From a virus, in IMG/VR virus record IMGVR_UViG_3300034062_005623, positions 1-45,579 of that record: DNA of 45,579 nt. One strand, given 5' to 3'. The notes beneath the pieces were generated by a model. It was not told the DNA's origin and searched no databases. It was given only the letters and a program-made list of their open reading frames with translations. Each line of letters starts with the position of its first letter. Positions within the stretch are counted from its first letter, which is position 1. Of this stretch, positions 922-15,878 are shown piece after piece. The position numbers and the translations under genes are program-made.

Positions 922-2151
922 TCACTTGTTAATTGTAGAAATTACAGGTTGCCCCTGAACAAATGCCATATCAGCAACAGATTGCAGTCGTCGTGCGGTT
1001 GCAATCCCAGTATTAGCATACACCGGAACATGAATAAAACCATAGGATTTCACATAATCTTCGGTTTTACCAGGAGTCAGAGACCCCTCTGAGAGACGCC
1101 TAGAATCCTCTGGATGAAGGCGCACCACACGCCCAATGGTTTGCACCATAGAAGTATAGTCCATGTTCCTCATGAGGATGCAGGAGGTCAATCCTGGGCA
1201 ATCAATACCCTCAGAAAGAATGGAGTAGTGAAGAAGAACAAACTTCTTGGTAGAATCTGCACCGTATTCCTTGAGAGTTTCAAAGAATACATCACGCTTG
1301 ACTTTTTGATTGTTAATGAATGCACCATGCTTAGCAGTAATCCACAGAATCTCATAACCATGAGACTGAATCTCAGTCATAAAATCAGTTTCGGCAAGCA
1401 TACGAATCATTACCTTAGTATTCGGTGCTGCAACCAGAACCTTTTCCATGTTCTCTTCATTCAGAATAGTATCCAGAAGAGTCATGCAATCATGTTCTGC
1501 ACCAAATTCTTTATTACGAACAACATTCCTTTCCTGAGTATTGATTTGTGGAGGAACAATGAATCCCTCCTTAACCATATCAGAAGCAGAAATATTCGTA
1601 ATCATTTGACCATACACATGACTCCAGTTCATACCAGGTTTGTTGTAAACATTAGAATACTTTGGAGTTGCAGTATAAGAATAGAATCGCTTGGACTTCT
1701 GAGACAATTGCTCCACATAAGGAAAGAAATCCTTACGAACGGAATTATGTGCCTCATCCATATGAACGGTATCAATTTCAATACCAGACTCAATCAGACG
1801 ATGAAGAGAATGATACGTTGTAAAGATCAGTTTATGACCTTCAACATTCTCATGCCATTCACGAATCATCTTAGGACTGGTAGTGCAGAAATGATCAGTA
1901 TCACCAGAATGCACATGAAGAATGTGAGCATTATTAATGTACTTGATGTAATCCGAACACAACTGAGAAGTCAACAGGATTCGTGGAGAAATCACAACAA
2001 CAGTTTGATGCTGAGACTTCTTATACTCACGAATAGTATCTCCGATACCAATCAGAGTCTTACCTGCACCAGTCACGGCACAGACAACACCTCTGGAATA
2101 TTTGGAGAGCATGTCAAGAGCACTTTGCTGATGAGGACGAAACTGAATCAT
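922..2151 (-). CDS. SF2 (DEAD/DEAH-type) helicase, UvsW/Res-like
   Basis: This is an ATP-dependent superfamily 2 helicase or translocase. Numbered from the GTG at 2172, the motifs are: FRPHQ (residues 11-15), Walker A GAGKT (35-39), DEAH (139-142), motif III TATP (167-170), and motif VI QTIGRVVR near residue 350. Both RecA-like lobes are present in about 410 residues. By family it could remodel recombination or replication intermediates like T4 UvsW, or act in repair. I place the start at the ATG at 2151 (M8 of the longer frame). A TATAAT box lies only 3 nt from the GTG, so a transcript from it would begin inside that codon region. The long frame on the opposite strand (1114-2166) looks like a shadow. 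Confidence 0.85.
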   Translation of the reverse strand: MIQFRPHQQSALDMLSKYSRGVVCAVTGAGKTLIGIGDTIREYKKSQHQTVVVISPRILLTSQLCSDYIKYINNAHILHVHSGDTDHFCTTSPKMIREWHENVEGHKLIFTTYHSLHRLIESGIEIDTVHMDEAHNSVRKDFFPYVEQLSQKSKRFYSYTATPKYSNVYNKPGMNWSHVYGQMITNISASDMVKEGFIVPPQINTQERNVVRNKEFGAEHDCMTLLDTILNEENMEKVLVAAPNTKVMIRMLAETDFMTEIQSHGYEILWITAKHGAFINNQKVKRDVFFETLKEYGADSTKKFVLLHYSILSEGIDCPGLTSCILMRNMDYTSMVQTIGRVVRLHPEDSRRLSEGSLTPGKTEDYVKSYGFIHVPVYANTGIATARRLQSVADMAFVQGQPVISTINK

Positions 2152-2174: not shown

Positions 2175-2180
2175 ATTATA
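2175..2180 (-). promoter_or_regulatory. Possible -10 box (TATAAT) for the helicase gene
   Basis: A perfect TATAAT lies on the minus strand just upstream of the helicase gene and directly after a terminator hairpin. No clear -35 is visible; the expected place falls inside the hairpin. It would give a leader of only a few nucleotides to the ATG at 2151. Confidence 0.35.
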
Positions 2181-2185
2181 GCAAT

Positions 2186-2207
2186 AAAAAATCCCCTTGT
2201 AGGGGAT
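2186..2207 (-). terminator. Rho-independent terminator
   Basis: On the minus strand ATCCCC, a 5-nt loop and GGGGAT form a 6-bp, mostly GC stem followed at once by a run of T. It would end transcription coming from the lectin side and forms the 3' end of the small RNA candidate. Confidence 0.85.
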
Positions 2208-2266
2208 GGTGTGGACGGTTCTTCAGGTGTCCTATAGAAGCTTAGATTCTCATCTTCAACGGAGAC
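2186..2266 (-). ncRNA. Candidate small RNA (about 80 nt), no recognised family
   Basis: The unit has its own sigma70-like promoter (2273-2301) and a strong terminator (2186-2207), and no frame of useful length lies between them. The predicted transcript starts near 2266. It contains AGAT-GAGA-ATCT, a 4-bp stem capped by a GNRA tetraloop and flanked by GAAG...CTTC. It also has a possible GGAC...GTCC hairpin, then an unpaired CACACC-rich linker and the terminator. It could instead be a leader with an attenuator for the helicase gene. It matches no tRNA or riboswitch I could recognise. Confidence 0.55.
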
Positions 2267-2272
2267 AAACCT

Positions 2273-2301
2273 AGTCTAGCAGTATTTTAGTAAAGTGTCA
2301 A
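2273..2301 (-). promoter_or_regulatory. Sigma70-type promoter, TTGACA-N17-TAGACT
   Basis: Minus strand: a perfect -35 TTGACA (2301-2296), exactly 17 nt of spacer, and -10 TAGACT (2278-2273, four of six matches). The predicted start is near 2266. It sits between the lectin gene stop and the terminator, where the only thing to transcribe is the small RNA candidate or a helicase leader. A short hairpin (TCCGC-TTT-GCGGA) lies just upstream. Confidence 0.65.
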
Positions 2302-2368
2302 TCGTCCGCAAAGCGGATGCGGTGGGGGAGGGGTGCAGGGGTGATGGCGTTGTGGGAGTAGAGCATGG

Positions 2369-3154
2369 TTAGACCATCGTGATGCCCCATTTGAAGGCCA
2401 ACCATGCCTGCAGTGAGTCTCGATCAGTGCTGTTCAACACAGAGGAGAAACATATAACCTCACCGATCAAGCCAAGCCAGCCACGACCGGCGTTTGTTCT
2501 ATCGTTACCTAATTGAACTCCTTGAGTCGCGTTAAATGAGGCCGAGCCATTATTTAAGATTCGGATGATCGAGGGATCGTCAACGCTTGGCGAAGTGAAA
2601 TGCGATGTGCTGAATCTGTCGGTTGTTCCGCCATTGATGTAAGCGCGATCAAAGCCGGTGCCGTCCTGATTGTAAGAAGTGCTGTTGCCGCTAATGCGCC
2701 ACCCGGGATCATTTGAGCTAGTAATCAATCCGCCAAAGCTAGTATAAGTTCCGCCAAATGCCCCATCCATGATAACGTAGATTTCAGCTATAGCCGTTGT
2801 CGTCGTGTCTGTATTTCGCAGATAATTGTTGTGATTGCTACTGCCCCAATCCAAGCATTTTTTGCTGTTGATGCCTGTCACGTACTGCGGACCTGTTGCG
2901 CTTTTTGATAGCGTCCATGCTCTGCTGCCCTTGCTGGTAACCGCAGTGATTTCCGTTCCCGATGTGGTGACGGTAGTCTCATCGGCAAAGTCGTACCAGA
3001 GAACTGGAGATAGCCCTGGCGTTGGATCACCAGCTGATGGCCAAATCGCCGCACGCCTTGCCACGCTCTGCTCATTCTGGAACCAGAGCCCGGTTGCTGC
3101 GCTGCCTGTTGGCACACGCCTGACACCAATCAATCCGCCGTTGAAGCCCAACAT
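2369..3154 (-). CDS. LamG/concanavalin-A-like lectin-domain virion protein
   Basis: This 261-residue protein has an N-terminal GLIGVRRVPTG...GLWFQNEQ segment of the type used in cyanophage tail-associated proteins. A beta-rich domain follows, ending DRDSLQAWLAFKWGI, a typical C-terminal strand of LamG/Con-A-like lectin folds. It probably binds sugar on the host surface or decorates a fibre. An AGGAGA ribosome-binding site lies about 8 nt before the ATG, and the start overlaps the upstream stop by one base (TGATG). Base composition is clearly more GC-rich, with different codon choice, than the AT-rich fibre genes next door, which points to recent acquisition. Confidence 0.7.
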   Translation of the reverse strand: MLGFNGGLIGVRRVPTGSAATGLWFQNEQSVARRAAIWPSAGDPTPGLSPVLWYDFADETTVTTSGTEITAVTSKGSRAWTLSKSATGPQYVTGINSKKCLDWGSSNHNNYLRNTDTTTTAIAEIYVIMDGAFGGTYTSFGGLITSSNDPGWRISGNSTSYNQDGTGFDRAYINGGTTDRFSTSHFTSPSVDDPSIIRILNNGSASFNATQGVQLGNDRTNAGRGWLGLIGEVICFSSVLNSTDRDSLQAWLAFKWGITMV

Positions 3155-3558: not shown

Positions 3559-6500
3559 CTAGAACATAAAGGAAGCAACAACAGCATTAATACCAGAACC
3601 AGAACCAGTGATACCAGTTAATTGAGATCCATCACCACTAAATGAAGTTGCAGTTACTACACCAGAAACTAAAACATCTCCAGTAACAGTTAATTTAGAT
3701 GTTGGACTTGTGGTTCCAATACCAACATTAAAGTTCTCATCTCCAATAATCCAAGTACTATTTCCTACACCAATTGCTAATTGATTATCACCAGATGAAT
3801 TGTAGAGTTGAACATTATGTCCAATCGCTATATTGCAAGATCCAGTGATATTATTAGATCCAGCGTCCTTTCCAAAGAAGTTATTATAACATCCAGTGGT
3901 ATTATTAGATCCAGCATTTTGTCCAAAAAAGTTATTACTAGATCCAGTGGTATTAAAATAACCAGAATACTTACCAAAGAAGTTATTATAATTTCCAGTG
4001 ATGTTGTTAAGTCCTACTCTATTACCAAAAAAGTTATTATTACATCCAGTGGTGTTAGAACATCCTGCACTAGCACCTAAGAAGTTATTACGTCTTCCAT
4101 CGGTGTTGTCTTTTCCTGCACCCTCACCAAAGAAATTATTATAAGATCCAGTGGTGTTATTAAGTCCCGCACATCTACCAAAGAAGTTATTATCAGATCC
4201 AGTGCTTCCTTCAACAGTATCAACGGTAATTGTAATATCATCAGTACCAGAAGAACCGCCAACAGCAGAACCATCAATCGTAAGTGTATTTCCTTGATTA
4301 TAATTTTGACCCTCTGTTATAATATTAACTATAGTAACATCACCATTACCATCTCTTTCAACATAGAAAGTTGCCCCAGATCCATCACCACCAGTTCCAG
4401 ATACATCAGGATAAGAGTTATTTGCTTCTCCTGCTAATGTGGTGGAACTTGTGATACCTATAGATGTTATTCTACCTTTTCTTCCTTGCCCTGCATAAAC
4501 ACCTAAGAAGTTATTAAAACATCCAGTGGTGTTACAATAACCAGAATACTTACCAAAGAAGTTATTATTAGATCCAGTGGTGTTGTGGAGTCCTGCACAA
4601 GCACCAAAGAAGTTATTAAAAGATCCTGTGCTAATCTCTGCTCCTGTAGACCTACCAAACAAGTTGTTATCAGATCCTTCATAGTCATATCCCAGTTCTG
4701 CTGCAAATCCAGCGTCCTTTCCAAAGAAGTTATTATAACATCCAGTGGTGTTATTTTGTCCTGCAGAACGACCAAAGGAGTTATTATAAGATCCAGTGGT
4801 GTTACCACCACCTGCACCAGCACCAAAGAAGTTATTATGATTTCCAGTAGTGTTCGCTGCTCCAGCAAAAGCACCAAAGAAGGTATTATCACTTCCAATG
4901 GTATTATAACTTCCTGCACAATAACCAAAGAAGTTATTATAATATCCAGTGGTGTTGTTACGTCCTGCGTTATTACCAAAGAAGTTATTATAAGATCCAG
5001 TGGTGTTTGCAAATCCTGCATAACGACCAAAGAAGTTATTATAAGATCCATCAATGTTGGAACATCCTGCTCTATTACCAAAGAAGTTATTATAAGATCC
5101 ATCAATGTTGGAACATCCTGCACCAGCACCTAAGAAGTTATTATAAGATCCATCAATGTTGGAATATCCTGCTCTATTACCAAAGAAGTTATTATTAAAA
5201 CCACCATTATAACCACCATTACAATTATTAAAATAACCAGATTCGCATCCAAGGAAAATATTATCACCACCTTTAATATTATAATATCCAGCAGAAAGAC
5301 CAATAAAAATATTCTGCCCATCACCTTCATTACTAGTGGTAGAACTTCCAGCGCCTATACCAGCAAAAAAGTTATGTTGGGATGATGAAACTGAACAACC
5401 AGTAGTGGAATCACCAATTCTTATATTACCACTACCAAATCCTAATACTCCACCATATATTTCAAGTTCAGTTACTGGATTTGTGGTTCCAATACCGACA
5501 TTAGAGGTTGTATGAATTCCAGCGGATGTTGTAACCCACTGAGATGAACCACCACCTCCACCCCCAGTTGCACTAATTGTTACCGTACCAGTATTCTGAT
5601 CTACCGAAATACCAGATCCTGCGGCAATATAAGTTACTCCTACTCCAGTAATTGTTTCACCATTGATAGAGATTGATGTTGCACTGATAATTCCAGTATT
5701 TCCATCAATAGTTATTCCAGATCCAACTACAATAGTATTAGTAGAACCATCAAGAGTGATTGATGATGTTCCTATCGTCAATATTCCAGTAATTCTTGCA
5801 TCTCCATTTACAATCAGAGAAGTTGTTGCTCCACCGACAGTAACATTATTAAAAGTAGAAACACCAACACTCATACCTTCTGATGAGGTATTTCCATATC
5901 CAAGTGTTTGATCTAATGTTTGTGATCCTCCTCCACCCGAAACAGTAACAGTTACAACACCAGAAGAAACTGGAGATACTATTAAATTATTACCAAAATT
6001 AATTGTTGTAGCAGTTCCAACTAAAACTTCATCATCCCGTATACCAATACCAATACCAGAACCCGAGGCAACAATACCAGTTAATTGAGAACCATCACCC
6101 CTGAAGGAATTGGCAGTAATAATACCAGTGCTGTTTATATTAGCAACTGTTGCATTTTGAGTGGTTAAAGTTTGAGTAGTTAGAGTTTGTGATTGAATTA
6201 ATCCAGAAGCTCTTATATCAGTTTTTGTAATTGCTACACCATCACCAAAAATAGGATCTCCACCTACAAAAAATTCATAAGAATTACTTAAAATTGTATC
6301 TGTGGCAATTCCTAATCTTGCTATAGTTGTAATTCCCAGATTACCTGTAATTGATCCATTAAATGTAATATTTCCATTTACATTTAAATTATTTGAAACA
6401 GTTAAGTTACTTGCAATTGTTGTTACACCAGTAAAATAAGAAGAACCTACAACATAAAGTTTTGTTGGTGGATTGGTTATACCTAAACCAAGTTTTCCAT

Positions 6501-7707
6501 CATAAGTAAGAGACATCAATGGATTTGATGGATTCTGACCATAAATCCAATGGAAAGCGCCAGTTCCTAATCCAGCAGAACCATAGTCAAGGTAATAGTT
6601 GACATTTCCAGTATTTGAGTTTATAATATCTAAAGAAGTTGGAGTACTATACAAATAAAATGTATTTGTGTTTCCAGTTCTTATCTCTGCACTTCTTCCA
6701 ATTCCAATCGTAGAAACATTATTATCACTTATTACACTGATAGATGAAATTCCTGACTTGCGAACTTCTATATCTGCTTGAGGTGCTGTATTAGTTCCTA
6801 CTCCAATTTTTGCAGGAAATCCGACAACATAAAGAGTATCAGTTACTGTAGCAACACCAGTTGAACTGAATTGACTATTTACAGAATTAACAGAAATACT
6901 TCCACCAGAAGAAAGACTATTAGCAGTTGATGCAGTTCCTGTTAAGTTACCAACAAAACCAGATGCAGTTACAATGCCAGATACTATAATGTTTGATGGT
7001 AGTCTGGATGTACTTAATGTTCCTGAAGTAATATTAGATGCATTCAAGGAAGTAAGAGAAGCACCAGATCCAACAAATGATGATGCGGTAATAATTCCCG
7101 ATAGAGTAATATTGGATGGAAATCTGGATGTACTTATTGTACCAGAAGTAATGTTGGATGCATTTAATGATGTTAGATTACTTCCATTTCCAGAAAAAGA
7201 TACTGCAGTTACGATTCCATTTGAATATACATCACCAGTAGAATTAATTCCAATACCAGTAGAATAAACAAGTGGATTTGCTCCAACTTGAAAGGTAAAT
7301 GATGGACTTGTAGTAGCTATTCCAACATTTCCTACTGCATAAATGCTACTGACACCTATTCCAGTATTTACATCAACCCATTGAGATGTTGGAAGATTAG
7401 AAAGTTTTGATCCATCCCCATAGTAAGTAACAACTCCAGAACTTGCAGTTACAATTCCAGAAGTAATTGAAGTGACACCAACATTTAGGGTTGTAAATGA
7501 AGAAATTCCTGATAGATTAAGATTTCCAGTGTTTATTTCTGAGACACTTAAAATTCCAACTATTCTAACATCCCCAAAAACATTCAAAATATAATCTTTC
7601 AGTATAGTTGTTCCAATTCCAACCAAACCATTTTGATTAACTATGAAATTATCAGTATCTACCTGAACACCATTTCTAAAATTAAATGATTTGTTATAAT
7701 TTGCCAT
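3559..7707 (-). CDS. Long tail-fibre-like protein with 17-residue repeat array (1382 aa)
   Basis: The first 750 residues are beta-rich modules of the VGIGTT-P / NLTVSGIVTASSFxGxGSxLT type found in phage fibres and endosialidase-chaperone proteins. After a GGGGGS linker comes an array of about 21 units of 17 residues, consensus NNFFGxxAGxxNTTGxY (roughly residues 838-1291). It is broken once by a foreign beta module of about 95 residues. The C-terminus returns to the GSQLTGI module and ends abruptly without a visible chaperone or peptidase. The array should form a repetitive fibre shaft or solenoid. The gene is late, with CATAAATAC upstream. Confidence 0.75.
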   Translation of the reverse strand: MANYNKSFNFRNGVQVDTDNFIVNQNGLVGIGTTILKDYILNVFGDVRIVGILSVSEINTGNLNLSGISSFTTLNVGVTSITSGIVTASSGVVTYYGDGSKLSNLPTSQWVDVNTGIGVSSIYAVGNVGIATTSPSFTFQVGANPLVYSTGIGINSTGDVYSNGIVTAVSFSGNGSNLTSLNASNITSGTISTSRFPSNITLSGIITASSFVGSGASLTSLNASNITSGTLSTSRLPSNIIVSGIVTASGFVGNLTGTASTANSLSSGGSISVNSVNSQFSSTGVATVTDTLYVVGFPAKIGVGTNTAPQADIEVRKSGISSISVISDNNVSTIGIGRSAEIRTGNTNTFYLYSTPTSLDIINSNTGNVNYYLDYGSAGLGTGAFHWIYGQNPSNPLMSLTYDGKLGLGITNPPTKLYVVGSSYFTGVTTIASNLTVSNNLNVNGNITFNGSITGNLGITTIARLGIATDTILSNSYEFFVGGDPIFGDGVAITKTDIRASGLIQSQTLTTQTLTTQNATVANINSTGIITANSFRGDGSQLTGIVASGSGIGIGIRDDEVLVGTATTINFGNNLIVSPVSSGVVTVTVSGGGGSQTLDQTLGYGNTSSEGMSVGVSTFNNVTVGGATTSLIVNGDARITGILTIGTSSITLDGSTNTIVVGSGITIDGNTGIISATSISINGETITGVGVTYIAAGSGISVDQNTGTVTISATGGGGGGSSQWVTTSAGIHTTSNVGIGTTNPVTELEIYGGVLGFGSGNIRIGDSTTGCSVSSSQHNFFAGIGAGSSTTSNEGDGQNIFIGLSAGYYNIKGGDNIFLGCESGYFNNCNGGYNGGFNNNFFGNRAGYSNIDGSYNNFLGAGAGCSNIDGSYNNFFGNRAGCSNIDGSYNNFFGRYAGFANTTGSYNNFFGNNAGRNNTTGYYNNFFGYCAGSYNTIGSDNTFFGAFAGAANTTGNHNNFFGAGAGGGNTTGSYNNSFGRSAGQNNTTGCYNNFFGKDAGFAAELGYDYEGSDNNLFGRSTGAEISTGSFNNFFGACAGLHNTTGSNNNFFGKYSGYCNTTGCFNNFLGVYAGQGRKGRITSIGITSSTTLAGEANNSYPDVSGTGGDGSGATFYVERDGNGDVTIVNIITEGQNYNQGNTLTIDGSAVGGSSGTDDITITVDTVEGSTGSDNNFFGRCAGLNNTTGSYNNFFGEGAGKDNTDGRRNNFLGASAGCSNTTGCNNNFFGNRVGLNNITGNYNNFFGKYSGYFNTTGSSNNFFGQNAGSNNTTGCYNNFFGKDAGSNNITGSCNIAIGHNVQLYNSSGDNQLAIGVGNSTWIIGDENFNVGIGTTSPTSKLTVTGDVLVSGVVTATSFSGDGSQLTGITGSGSGINAVVASFMF
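3834..5193 (-). repeat. 51-bp coding tandem repeat array, about 21 units, with one insertion
   Basis: CCAAAGAAGTTATTAT-like units (plus strand) recur every 51 bp, encoding NNFFG-x2-AG-x2-N-x2-G. Neighbouring units near 5030-5190 are almost identical (NIDGSY type), while others have drifted, suggesting recent local duplication. Unit 10 is longer (GYDYEGSD). The array is interrupted at about 4206-4487 by an unrelated beta module. Confidence 0.9.
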
Positions 7708-11300: not shown

Positions 11301-14300
11301 TATCGCCAATTGGAGAACGAAGCGCAAAAGTTTTTGCTGAAGGTGGATTAAATTCAATATTGTCTCTATCTAATTGTGGATAAAGATCAACTGGACTTTG
11401 AGAATATTCAAGATTTGTAAATTCTTCAGTAATTGCATTACTTGCATTTAAAACATATAAATGATAGATTCCATCTTGAGATCCTTCAACATAAGGTGAA
11501 ATGACCTCGTTTCTATAAACATAAAGATTTGATTGACAATCATTTTTTTCAAAGCGAGGAAGATCTCTAACTTGTTCAGCAGTTGTTCTTAAGTTAATAT
11601 TGTTTGTGCTTGTTGCTGCAGGTGTATGTATTTTCTCATTTACGTCAGTAGTTTCATATGTAAATGACATATCATTTACAATTGTTTTAACTTCAAATTT
11701 ACCATTGTAACCACGATCATATAAACCACTAGGATTATTATCATCAGTTACATTTCGAATGATAACTAAATCACCAACATTCAAATCATGAGGAAGAGAT
11801 GTTAATACCGTAACTGTATTTGTTGCTAGAGTACAAGTAGTAATGAATCTTGGATTTTTATCATATTCATAATCTACCCCCGAAATGACGGTTTGAGTGA
11901 AATAATTTGTTCCTACACCAGTTGTACTAGATTCTTGAATAATAAATCCATCCTCTGGATTTTTTGATCCAGGAAGTTCCTTTGGAATTACAACTCGGAT
12001 TTTATAAATTTTTTCGTCTAAACTACGATCATCAACGATTCTCTTAATATAAGTTAAATCTGTAGTCTCACTTAATACAGAAACACCCAAGGCATTCAAT
12101 TGATTATAAATTGCATTTGATGAATTTACTTGAATATACCAGTTTCCTGCAGTTTCATCAAATTGAATTGGAGAACCAATTTCTCCCGCATTCTTATCAG
12201 AAACTCTACTGTAAATCTTGAGTTGTGCTCCTTTATAAATTTGAAGATCTTCTCCATTTAGAGCATTTGTATATGAAGTTGCTAATTTGATTTGATCGGC
12301 GTTGAGATCAATACCAGAAACAATTGCATAGAAAATAACATGTGGAGTTACGTTTTCTGGAAGATCTCCAGTTTCACTATTGATAATAATTTTTTCACCA
12401 TCTGAAAGATTGTGATTTGTGGTTAAAGTGAGAATAGAATTGGTAACACTTGCAACATCATACACTTTATACGAACTGGTGAATCCATCCTGCATGTAAA
12501 TGTTTGCAGAATATTCAGTATTGTTAATCGGAAGATATAATTTATCATTTACTCTTGCACCAATTCTATATCCTTGTGTTATATTAACTGGAAGACTATC
12601 TCTTGCCGCCAATCCATAAAGATATATCTTATCTCCTAATGGATTATAAGTTGAGTTAGTTGTTAATCCAACGTCAATTGACAACCATTCAATGTCCTCT
12701 TCCGCATTAACAATGTGCTTTGGTGGAATAATGGAAGTAATAAAGGCATTATTATCTTTATCAAATGCTTCTGCTTTAAATCCATCGGAGTTTAAAGATA
12801 TTTGTCCAAAGTTTGAATTTGAGTTTGTAATGGATGCATCTCCACCAGATTCAATATCAAAGTGTTTATTAAATCCAATCGCAAAAACAGAAACAATTTG
12901 AATAAACGAATCATTAGAAATTTTAATATGACTTGATTCCCAACCTTTTCTATAAATTGCGTTAGGATCTAGATGATATACCTTTTGCGTATTTGTTTGC
13001 GATGCTCCGGTAGGTAATGCTGAACCATAAACTGCATTATCTACAGGGGTAACACCATTATAAGACCTTGTTACTGGATCATATTTTACAAATGCACGAT
13101 CATCTTTCTGCAATGAAACCGCAGTAAATTGTGCAACAACCATTGAACGGAAACCTGATGCTTTAGCACCATCTGCGTGCATTCCATTCATTCCCCATAC
13201 CGATCTTAAAGAGCAGTTAAAGATATATGGAGAAGCACCAGATACTGTATCGGTTTCAACTGTTACAGTTGCTCCCGTAGCAACTGGAGCAGGATCCAAT
13301 GTAATTGGAAATGATTCCAATAAGTATGTGAATTGATTCTGATTTATAACATTTTGAACTTTTGTTGAAATATTATATTCAGGTACTGACACTCCTTTAA
13401 TTTTAATTGGAGTTCCAGCATTCAAATTATGATCACTATTTGTGGTAACTGTAACTTGAGTGCTTGCTGTAGTTCCATTACCAGAAATAATTGTTTGAAT
13501 TTCAATTGGATCGGTAGCAAATGCACCTACAATTTCCCATTCAGGATCTCTTTTCGCAAAGTTTTCTTCACCACTCGGAAACTTTGAACTTGCTGGAATT
13601 TGACGATATGTATTGAAAGCATTGGATAATTTGCTATAATACATATCAAGGTCGGTAAGACCATATGTTCCAACTTCATTTACACCATCAGCATACTCAA
13701 AGCAAGTGAGTTTGTGGTGAGAAAATCTTGGAACAGATTGGTAATTAGTATTAAAAAGAGATGGATGAGTATAAACTAATCCACTTTCATCACCATCAAA
13801 AAATGAAAACTGCCAGAAATAACAAGCACCAGTTACTCTGAAAATTGAAGACTTTTTAACTGCATTATCAGTTGGATTTGGAACATATTTTGGACGAACT
13901 TTTGTTTTTCTTAAATCTAATCCAACAATTGAAGTTCCTCTTGGAATTATAACTCCACCTCTGACACTATTAAACTTATAGAGAATATTATCTTCTTGTG
14001 TAAGATCAAAATTAGAATCTAGTTCTAAAGATAATGTTGTAAGTGCTGGTGCTCCTACTCCTCCAGTTGGTGGAACCGCAAAAGCAGTTCCTATATTATC
14101 ATAAATTGCATATCCAGGTCTATTATCAATTAAATGTTCTCCAGGAAAAACTAAGATTGTAGTCTTTTCTACAAGATCATTATCTCTTCCATTCACAAAA
14201 GAGAATCTTGCTGCTTCTAAGAGTGCCCTTTGAATGGTTTTAAAAGGTTGTGCAAGAGAATTTCCAGTATTTTCAATTGAATCTGTAGAATCAAGATCAT

Positions 14301-15804: not shown

Positions 15805-15878
15805 TGCAGGTTGTGGGGATCGAACCCACCTTAGCCGAATTATGAGTTCGGTGCTTTCGACCAGAGAGCTAAACCTGC
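15805..15878 (-). tRNA. tRNA with anticodon CAU (Met or Ile2)
   Basis: A 74-nt cloverleaf: acceptor GCAGGUU/AACCUGC with A73, anticodon stem CCGAA/UUCGG, loop CUCAUAA (anticodon CAU), T arm GUGGG-UUCGAUC-CCCAC, 5-nt variable loop. CAU serves methionine, or AUA-isoleucine if C34 is changed to lysidine; T4 carries such an Ile tRNA. Sequence alone does not settle which. CCA is not encoded. Confidence 0.93.

Follow-up and report, generated by a model that had tools for sequence, protein, structure and literature searches.

In this work, a short control region was analysed in a 45,579-nt stretch of viral DNA (the window; positions 1 to 45,579 of IMG/VR record IMGVR_UViG_3300034062_005623), whose source is a T4-like cyanophage (Kyanoviridae), a virus of freshwater cyanobacteria. 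The region lies on the minus strand in the gap that separates a tail-type gene (2369-3154) from a helicase gene (922-2151), where the tail-fibre genes give way to the helicase gene and a series of small genes. On the minus strand, the helicase frame is open from a GTG at 2172; because this codon lies upstream of the predicted +1 (2168), the start codon is most likely the ATG at 2151. The tail-type gene beside the cassette and the gap behind it (window positions 2302-3154) have GC contents of 51% and 66%, and the contig has 35%. Farther on, the minus strand encodes a 1382-aa tail-type protein (3559-7707) that contains a long array of repeats with the pattern GSYNNFFGxxAG. A tRNA gene at 15805-15878 (minus strand) is the sole Rfam match in the window. 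The elements of the region, which form two promoter-like modules (A and B), are as follows.

922-2151, minus strand: helicase gene (ResIII/DEAD and Helicase_C, PHROG 16)
2175-2180, minus strand: -10 hexamer TATAAT of module B, predicted +1 at A2168
2185-2190, minus strand: T-rich tract after the hairpin (five T and the last T of the stem)
2191-2207, minus strand: terminator-like hairpin ATCCCCT-ACA-AGGGGAT, within the spacer of module B
2211-2231, minus strand: upstream box of module B, GACACCTGAAGAACCGTCCAC, proposed activator site at predicted positions of about -63 to -43
2244-2255, minus strand: hairpin AGAT-GAGA-ATCT, weakly supported
2249-2272, minus strand: discriminator and initially transcribed region of module A, AGGTTTGTCTCCGTTGAAGATGAG (from per-column conservation over 181 sites)
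2273-2278, minus strand: -10 hexamer TAGACT of module A, preceded by TGC (extended -10-like)
2296-2301, minus strand: -35 hexamer TTGACA of module A

The preliminary description had read a promoter TTGACA-N17-TAGACT in this gap, which is borne out on the minus strand (TTGACA at 2301-2296, a 17-bp spacer and TAGACT at 2278-2273). The letters of the AGAT-GAGA-ATCT stem (2255-2244), of the hairpin (2207-2191) and of the T run behind it are likewise all there on this strand. The further claim of an otherwise empty interval between promoter and terminator is wrong, because the second half of this interval (2231-2211) is the box of module B, whose TATAAT (2180-2175) lies just past the terminator.

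By consensus alone, 19 promoter-like sites were counted in 8 kb compared with 28.5 ± 5.7 in shuffled sequences, and 4 terminator-like sites compared with 4.3. Since these counts are within chance and the stability of the RNA is ordinary, the reality of the elements rests on their recurrence in relatives. The exact 22-mer TAGACTAGGTTTGTCTCCGTTG, which covers the -10 and the start region of module A, was found in at least 119 viral contig stretches. Scanning with the variant TAGACTACCTTTGTC, a query from which TTGACA is absent, gave 99 non-redundant contexts that were not selected for a -35, and in 86 of them a perfect TTGACA stood exactly 17 bp upstream. Across 181 non-redundant phage sites, the spacer of module A is free, and the hexamers and TTTGTC-N2-(CC/GG)GTTGAAGAT are conserved; the start-region motif can be written as A[GG/CC]TTTGTC-N2-[CC/GG]GTTGAAGATRA, with the predicted +1 at G2266. 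At these sites, conservation fades about 17 nt past the predicted start, and this first part of the predicted transcript (GUCNNNGUUGAAGAURA) is conserved in all A contexts. With TTGACA-N17-TAGACT and a G at the predicted +1, module A resembles the sigma-70 (SigA-type) early promoters of phages. Unlike an ordinary SigA promoter, it keeps its conservation over roughly the first 17 nt of the transcript and comes in two exchanged variants (AGG..CC and ACC..GG). Such a long conserved start region exceeds the needs of RNA polymerase, and a plain promoter leaves it unexplained. The GG just after the -10 (2270-2271) and the CC about 8 nt later (2261-2262), both on the minus strand, swap jointly between the variants, which looks as if a dyad were kept; a few copies depart from this rule.

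Module A is present in 1-4 copies per genome, and the full motif was found in only two of the nine named phage genomes searched (S-SRM01 and S-SKS1). Among relatives, it occupies at least four gene contexts, several of which, other than the helicase leader, have no conserved terminator behind A.

before module B and the helicase gene
directly upstream of a SegE-like gene
antisense to a second SegE-like gene
directed away from gp55, the gene of the late sigma factor, and reaching into an Sm-like gene at its end

Module B consists of a 21-bp box (consensus like GACACTTGAAGAACTGGCACA), 29-30 bp of spacer, TATAAT and a purine at +1. The box of the window itself has 6 mismatches to the consensus GACACTTGAAGAACTGGCACA, and the box family precedes many unrelated genes at the fixed distance of 29-30 bp before TATAAT. 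The complete genome of S-SRM01 contains 14 boxes at ≤4 mismatches, and the same genome reversed as a control contains none at this threshold. Thirteen of the 14 are followed by a TATAAT-like hexamer at 28-32 bp, and these sites share one strand and are confined to 49-90 kb, a region of small hypothetical genes. In a test of the offset on 129 boxes from loci that were not chosen for a -10, TATAAT (≥5/6 matches) occurred about 101 times at offsets of 28-32, compared with 0-1 at most other offsets. A small peak at 40-41 bp was considered as a second helical-phase spacing and rejected, as it reflects a conserved CTATA after the -10. In 150 degenerate B sites, the spacing was 29 or 30 in 136, and 148 of 149 sites had a purine at the expected +1, position 7 after TATAAT. 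In 117 of the 150 sites, an open frame on the upstream side terminates close to the box, the box usually beginning at that stop codon, and an open frame starts ≤90 nt after the -10 in 140 (54 on the opposite strand), at a median of 22 nt past it. Many of the small genes in the hyperplastic region have module B in front of them, and the module was found in eight of nine named Kyanoviridae genomes (none in the reversed control). Its -10 is good and its -35 is weak or absent, at best CTTGNA-like; the fixed upstream box suggests an activator site. In the marine phages S-SSM7 and S-T4, box, hairpin and -10 stand before the same helicase gene and module A is missing.

The spacer of module B contains the terminator-like hairpin, and over the 150 B sites it folds 4.7 kcal/mol better than shuffled sequences (p = 3e-22). 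Across 52 leaders of the helicase gene, the mean z of the hairpin beside the -10 is about -2.5 to -2.8. One hairpin subtype has 94.5% of its cells paired and 18 double changes, compared with 7.1 in shuffles and 0-3 in slid versions. No clear T tract accompanies the hairpin in 15 of the 52 leaders, and therefore termination is perhaps neither its sole nor its general function.

The RNA between the modules gives a different picture. The preliminary description had seen about 80 nt of structured sequence, and the predicted 82-nt RNA turned out not to be unusually stable (z -0.86, and +0.24 for the part before the terminator). From A to the B box, the segment varies in both length and sequence (about 76 to 119 nt to the -10), and its first 40 nt fold like shuffles in the 52 helicase leaders (mean z -0.36). 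The conservation of stems in relatives, which had been put forward as a test, is largely wanting for the GNRA-capped stem and is found for the hairpin beside the -10, with its compensatory changes. All four pairs of the GNRA stem can form in 21 of the 52 leaders, and stem and GNRA loop together are present in 15. The AGAU/NNNU stem has a slight excess of compensatory cells, its covariation is weak, and the GNRA-capped stem was rejected as a conserved element. RNAalifold found no consensus structure on the full alignment, where hairpins at shifting positions would be missed, and the fold of the window contains no antiterminator pairing alternative to the hairpin. The preliminary description could place the RNA in no family, and no Rfam covariance model matched the region at the gathering threshold or even at E = 1. 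In the helicase leaders of L171, L230 and others, columns 12-23 after the A core hold an ATG in 44 of 66 and a stop triplet in 59 of 66. A minigene (Met-Arg-X-stop) after GTTGAAG was judged improbable, since there is no Shine-Dalgarno sequence at a usable distance, the ATG is often lost and the absence of TGG is not significant; the Met codon, two codons and stop triplet probably arise as a side effect of the DNA motif.

A search of 84,980 prokaryote genomes gave no match to A or B with patterns that a more degenerate host site would escape; on this result, a host regulon was rejected for both.

By its architecture, the closest known kind of element appears to be the PeSLs (promoter early stem-loop cassettes) of T4-like phages. 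These were reportedly treated by Arbiol et al. in 2010 and Comeau et al. in 2014. As with PeSLs, promoter and terminator-like stem-loop share one short intergenic unit, to judge from the sequence, and many copies are present among the small variable genes of hyperplastic regions (49-90 kb in S-SRM01). One paper cites PeSLs as cassettes of promoter and stem-loop that serve T4-like phages as shuffling points; for the surroundings of the S-PM2 ORFanage it notes a single early promoter and two stem-loops, one of the latter at 11369-11391 (PMC4503421). This stem-loop falls inside a B site found here (11350-11405). Module shuffling has one clear counterpart: in the related contig L005, the sequence downstream of A matches the window, the upstream tail gene is wholly different, and the switch is at TTGACA, the -35 of A, which suggests a module exchange at the cassette. 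The region is filed with PeSLs because of the S-PM2 stem-loop and this exchange. The canonical strong sigma-70 promoter of PeSLs is matched by A; in B, the -10 is good, the -35 is at best weakly CTTGNA-like, and an upstream box stands in its place. Compared with PeSLs as they are cited, B differs by a 21-bp box placed at a fixed distance of about 30 bp before a -10-dominated promoter, with the stem-loop in between. The new element would thus be the fixed upstream box. It is not mentioned in the literature examined on PeSLs and cyanophages, and a literature search for promoter motifs by sequence string gave nothing on cyanophages, although an earlier description is possible in both cases. The promoter searches of Sullivan 2010 used BPROM and T4-late, Pho and NtcA patterns only. 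The known RNA elements of cyanophages, the non-coding antisense transcript CfrI of S-PM2 (PMC2984593) and the motifs PhotoRC-II, wcaG and manA (PMC2864571), differ from the present region, which has no Rfam match and is unrelated to them in location and architecture.

Taken as a whole, this is a real and strongly conserved control region, read here as two predicted promoters in tandem with a putative stop signal between them. We consider it quite probable that 2186-2301 with the adjoining -10 forms a promoter-terminator-promoter junction of A, hairpin and B, in which B is the helicase's own promoter. We hypothesize that host RNA polymerase would start early in infection at A (G2266), a predicted strong promoter of the sigma-70 (cyanobacterial SigA) type, and transcribe towards the helicase gene. 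Most of these transcripts would end near 2185 at the intrinsic terminator (about 80 nt), and some would read into the helicase gene, so that read-through from A would provide an attenuated early helicase supply. Module B, with its start at A2168, would be the main helicase promoter and would probably need an activator protein bound to the DNA of the box. The hairpin would block transcription from the upstream tail genes and from A and insulate the helicase gene, and it would therefore leave B alone to set the helicase level. In such a scheme, an attenuated transcript of about 80 nt from A is possible, and a dedicated sRNA is unlikely.

Of the two readings in the preliminary description, the attenuated helicase leader, which contains a terminator, comes close to the mark. 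The other, an independent sRNA gene, would here mean that A makes a discrete structured RNA of about 80 nt, which ends at the hairpin and acts in trans on host or phage mRNAs. Promoter and terminator are indeed both real in the clade, a terminator-like hairpin stands 60-100 nt past A in the helicase leaders, and the AGAU/NNNU stem contributes its slight compensatory excess. The body of such an RNA, however, is not conserved, with its variable length, shuffle-like first 40 nt and no consensus structure or Rfam match within the limits given above, and the T tract is unclear in the 15 leaders already mentioned. Furthermore, A and the terminator each occur without the other: since the marine phages keep box, hairpin and -10 without A, the terminator does not form one half of an sRNA gene, and A elsewhere has no conserved terminator behind it. 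The independent gene is unsupported, and we regard it as very improbable. It is also rather unlikely that the region is a regulated attenuator, with A as the main early helicase promoter and the conserved 5' RNA and the hairpin deciding whether transcripts terminate or read through, for instance together with a phage antiterminator or an RNA-binding protein. This reading would account for the conservation of the first ~17 nt across all contexts and for the covarying hairpins between A and the helicase gene, and a different A copy has an Sm-like gene beside it. Yet the start region is equally conserved where no terminator follows, the hairpin has no alternative antiterminator pairing in the window fold, and B is a complete promoter after the hairpin.

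The modules might instead be mainly recombination or homing sites, promoter-like only incidentally. The switch between the window and L005 at TTGACA, the two A contexts adjoining SegE-type GIY-YIG genes and the naming of the related PeSL cassettes as shuffling points all point in this direction. A homology block would not, however, give conservation at promoter positions and at +1, fixed spacings and variable spacers, and we attach only a slight probability to this explanation.

Cyanomyoviruses are without motA and asiA (PMC2984593; PMC5780444), T4-like cyanophages are stated to lack T4-like middle promoters (PMC5780444), and the ordering of their early and middle transcription was called unclear in a review (PMC2984593). 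Module B resembles in outline the T4 middle promoters (MotA box and sigma-70 -10, with AsiA) in that a proposed activator box would replace or assist a poor -35 before a good -10; it differs in that its box is longer and lies farther upstream than the -35 position, at about -63 to -43, where the MotA box lies at -30. Tentatively, and with rather less than even confidence, B may be the missing second-stage (delayed-early/middle) class with a putative, probably phage-encoded activator, and A a separate class with its own phage regulator. It would mean that the activator, in place of MotA/AsiA, binds GACA(C/G)TT-N4-AACTG(G/T)CACA some 53 bp before the start, and that B switches on small host-takeover genes. 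Both modules recur many times in related viruses and may belong to a poorly understood early gene control. As two explicit motifs of fixed spacing, they can be checked against existing infection RNA-seq and used as bait for DNA-binding proteins.

The other copies of module A have some features of their own. A role as the promoter of a replication origin was rejected, as the cumulative GC skew of S-SRM01 rises nearly genome-wide with no turn at the A copies. The copy upstream of gp55 and pointing away from it is at 141673-141721 (minus strand) in S-SRM01 (L187) and at about 1501-1552 in S-CREM1 (L423). It runs antisense into the Sm-like gene (PF16243), a neighbour of UvsW, and in several contigs its -35 (TTGACAA) overlaps a promoter of the opposite direction, TTGTCA-N18-TATAAT, into gp55. 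Two related genes of the SegE-type GIY-YIG family (PF19835; annotated as 'NAD synthetase' in S-SRM01) directly follow A, in sense orientation in L010, L015 and L018 and in antisense orientation in L009 and L020.
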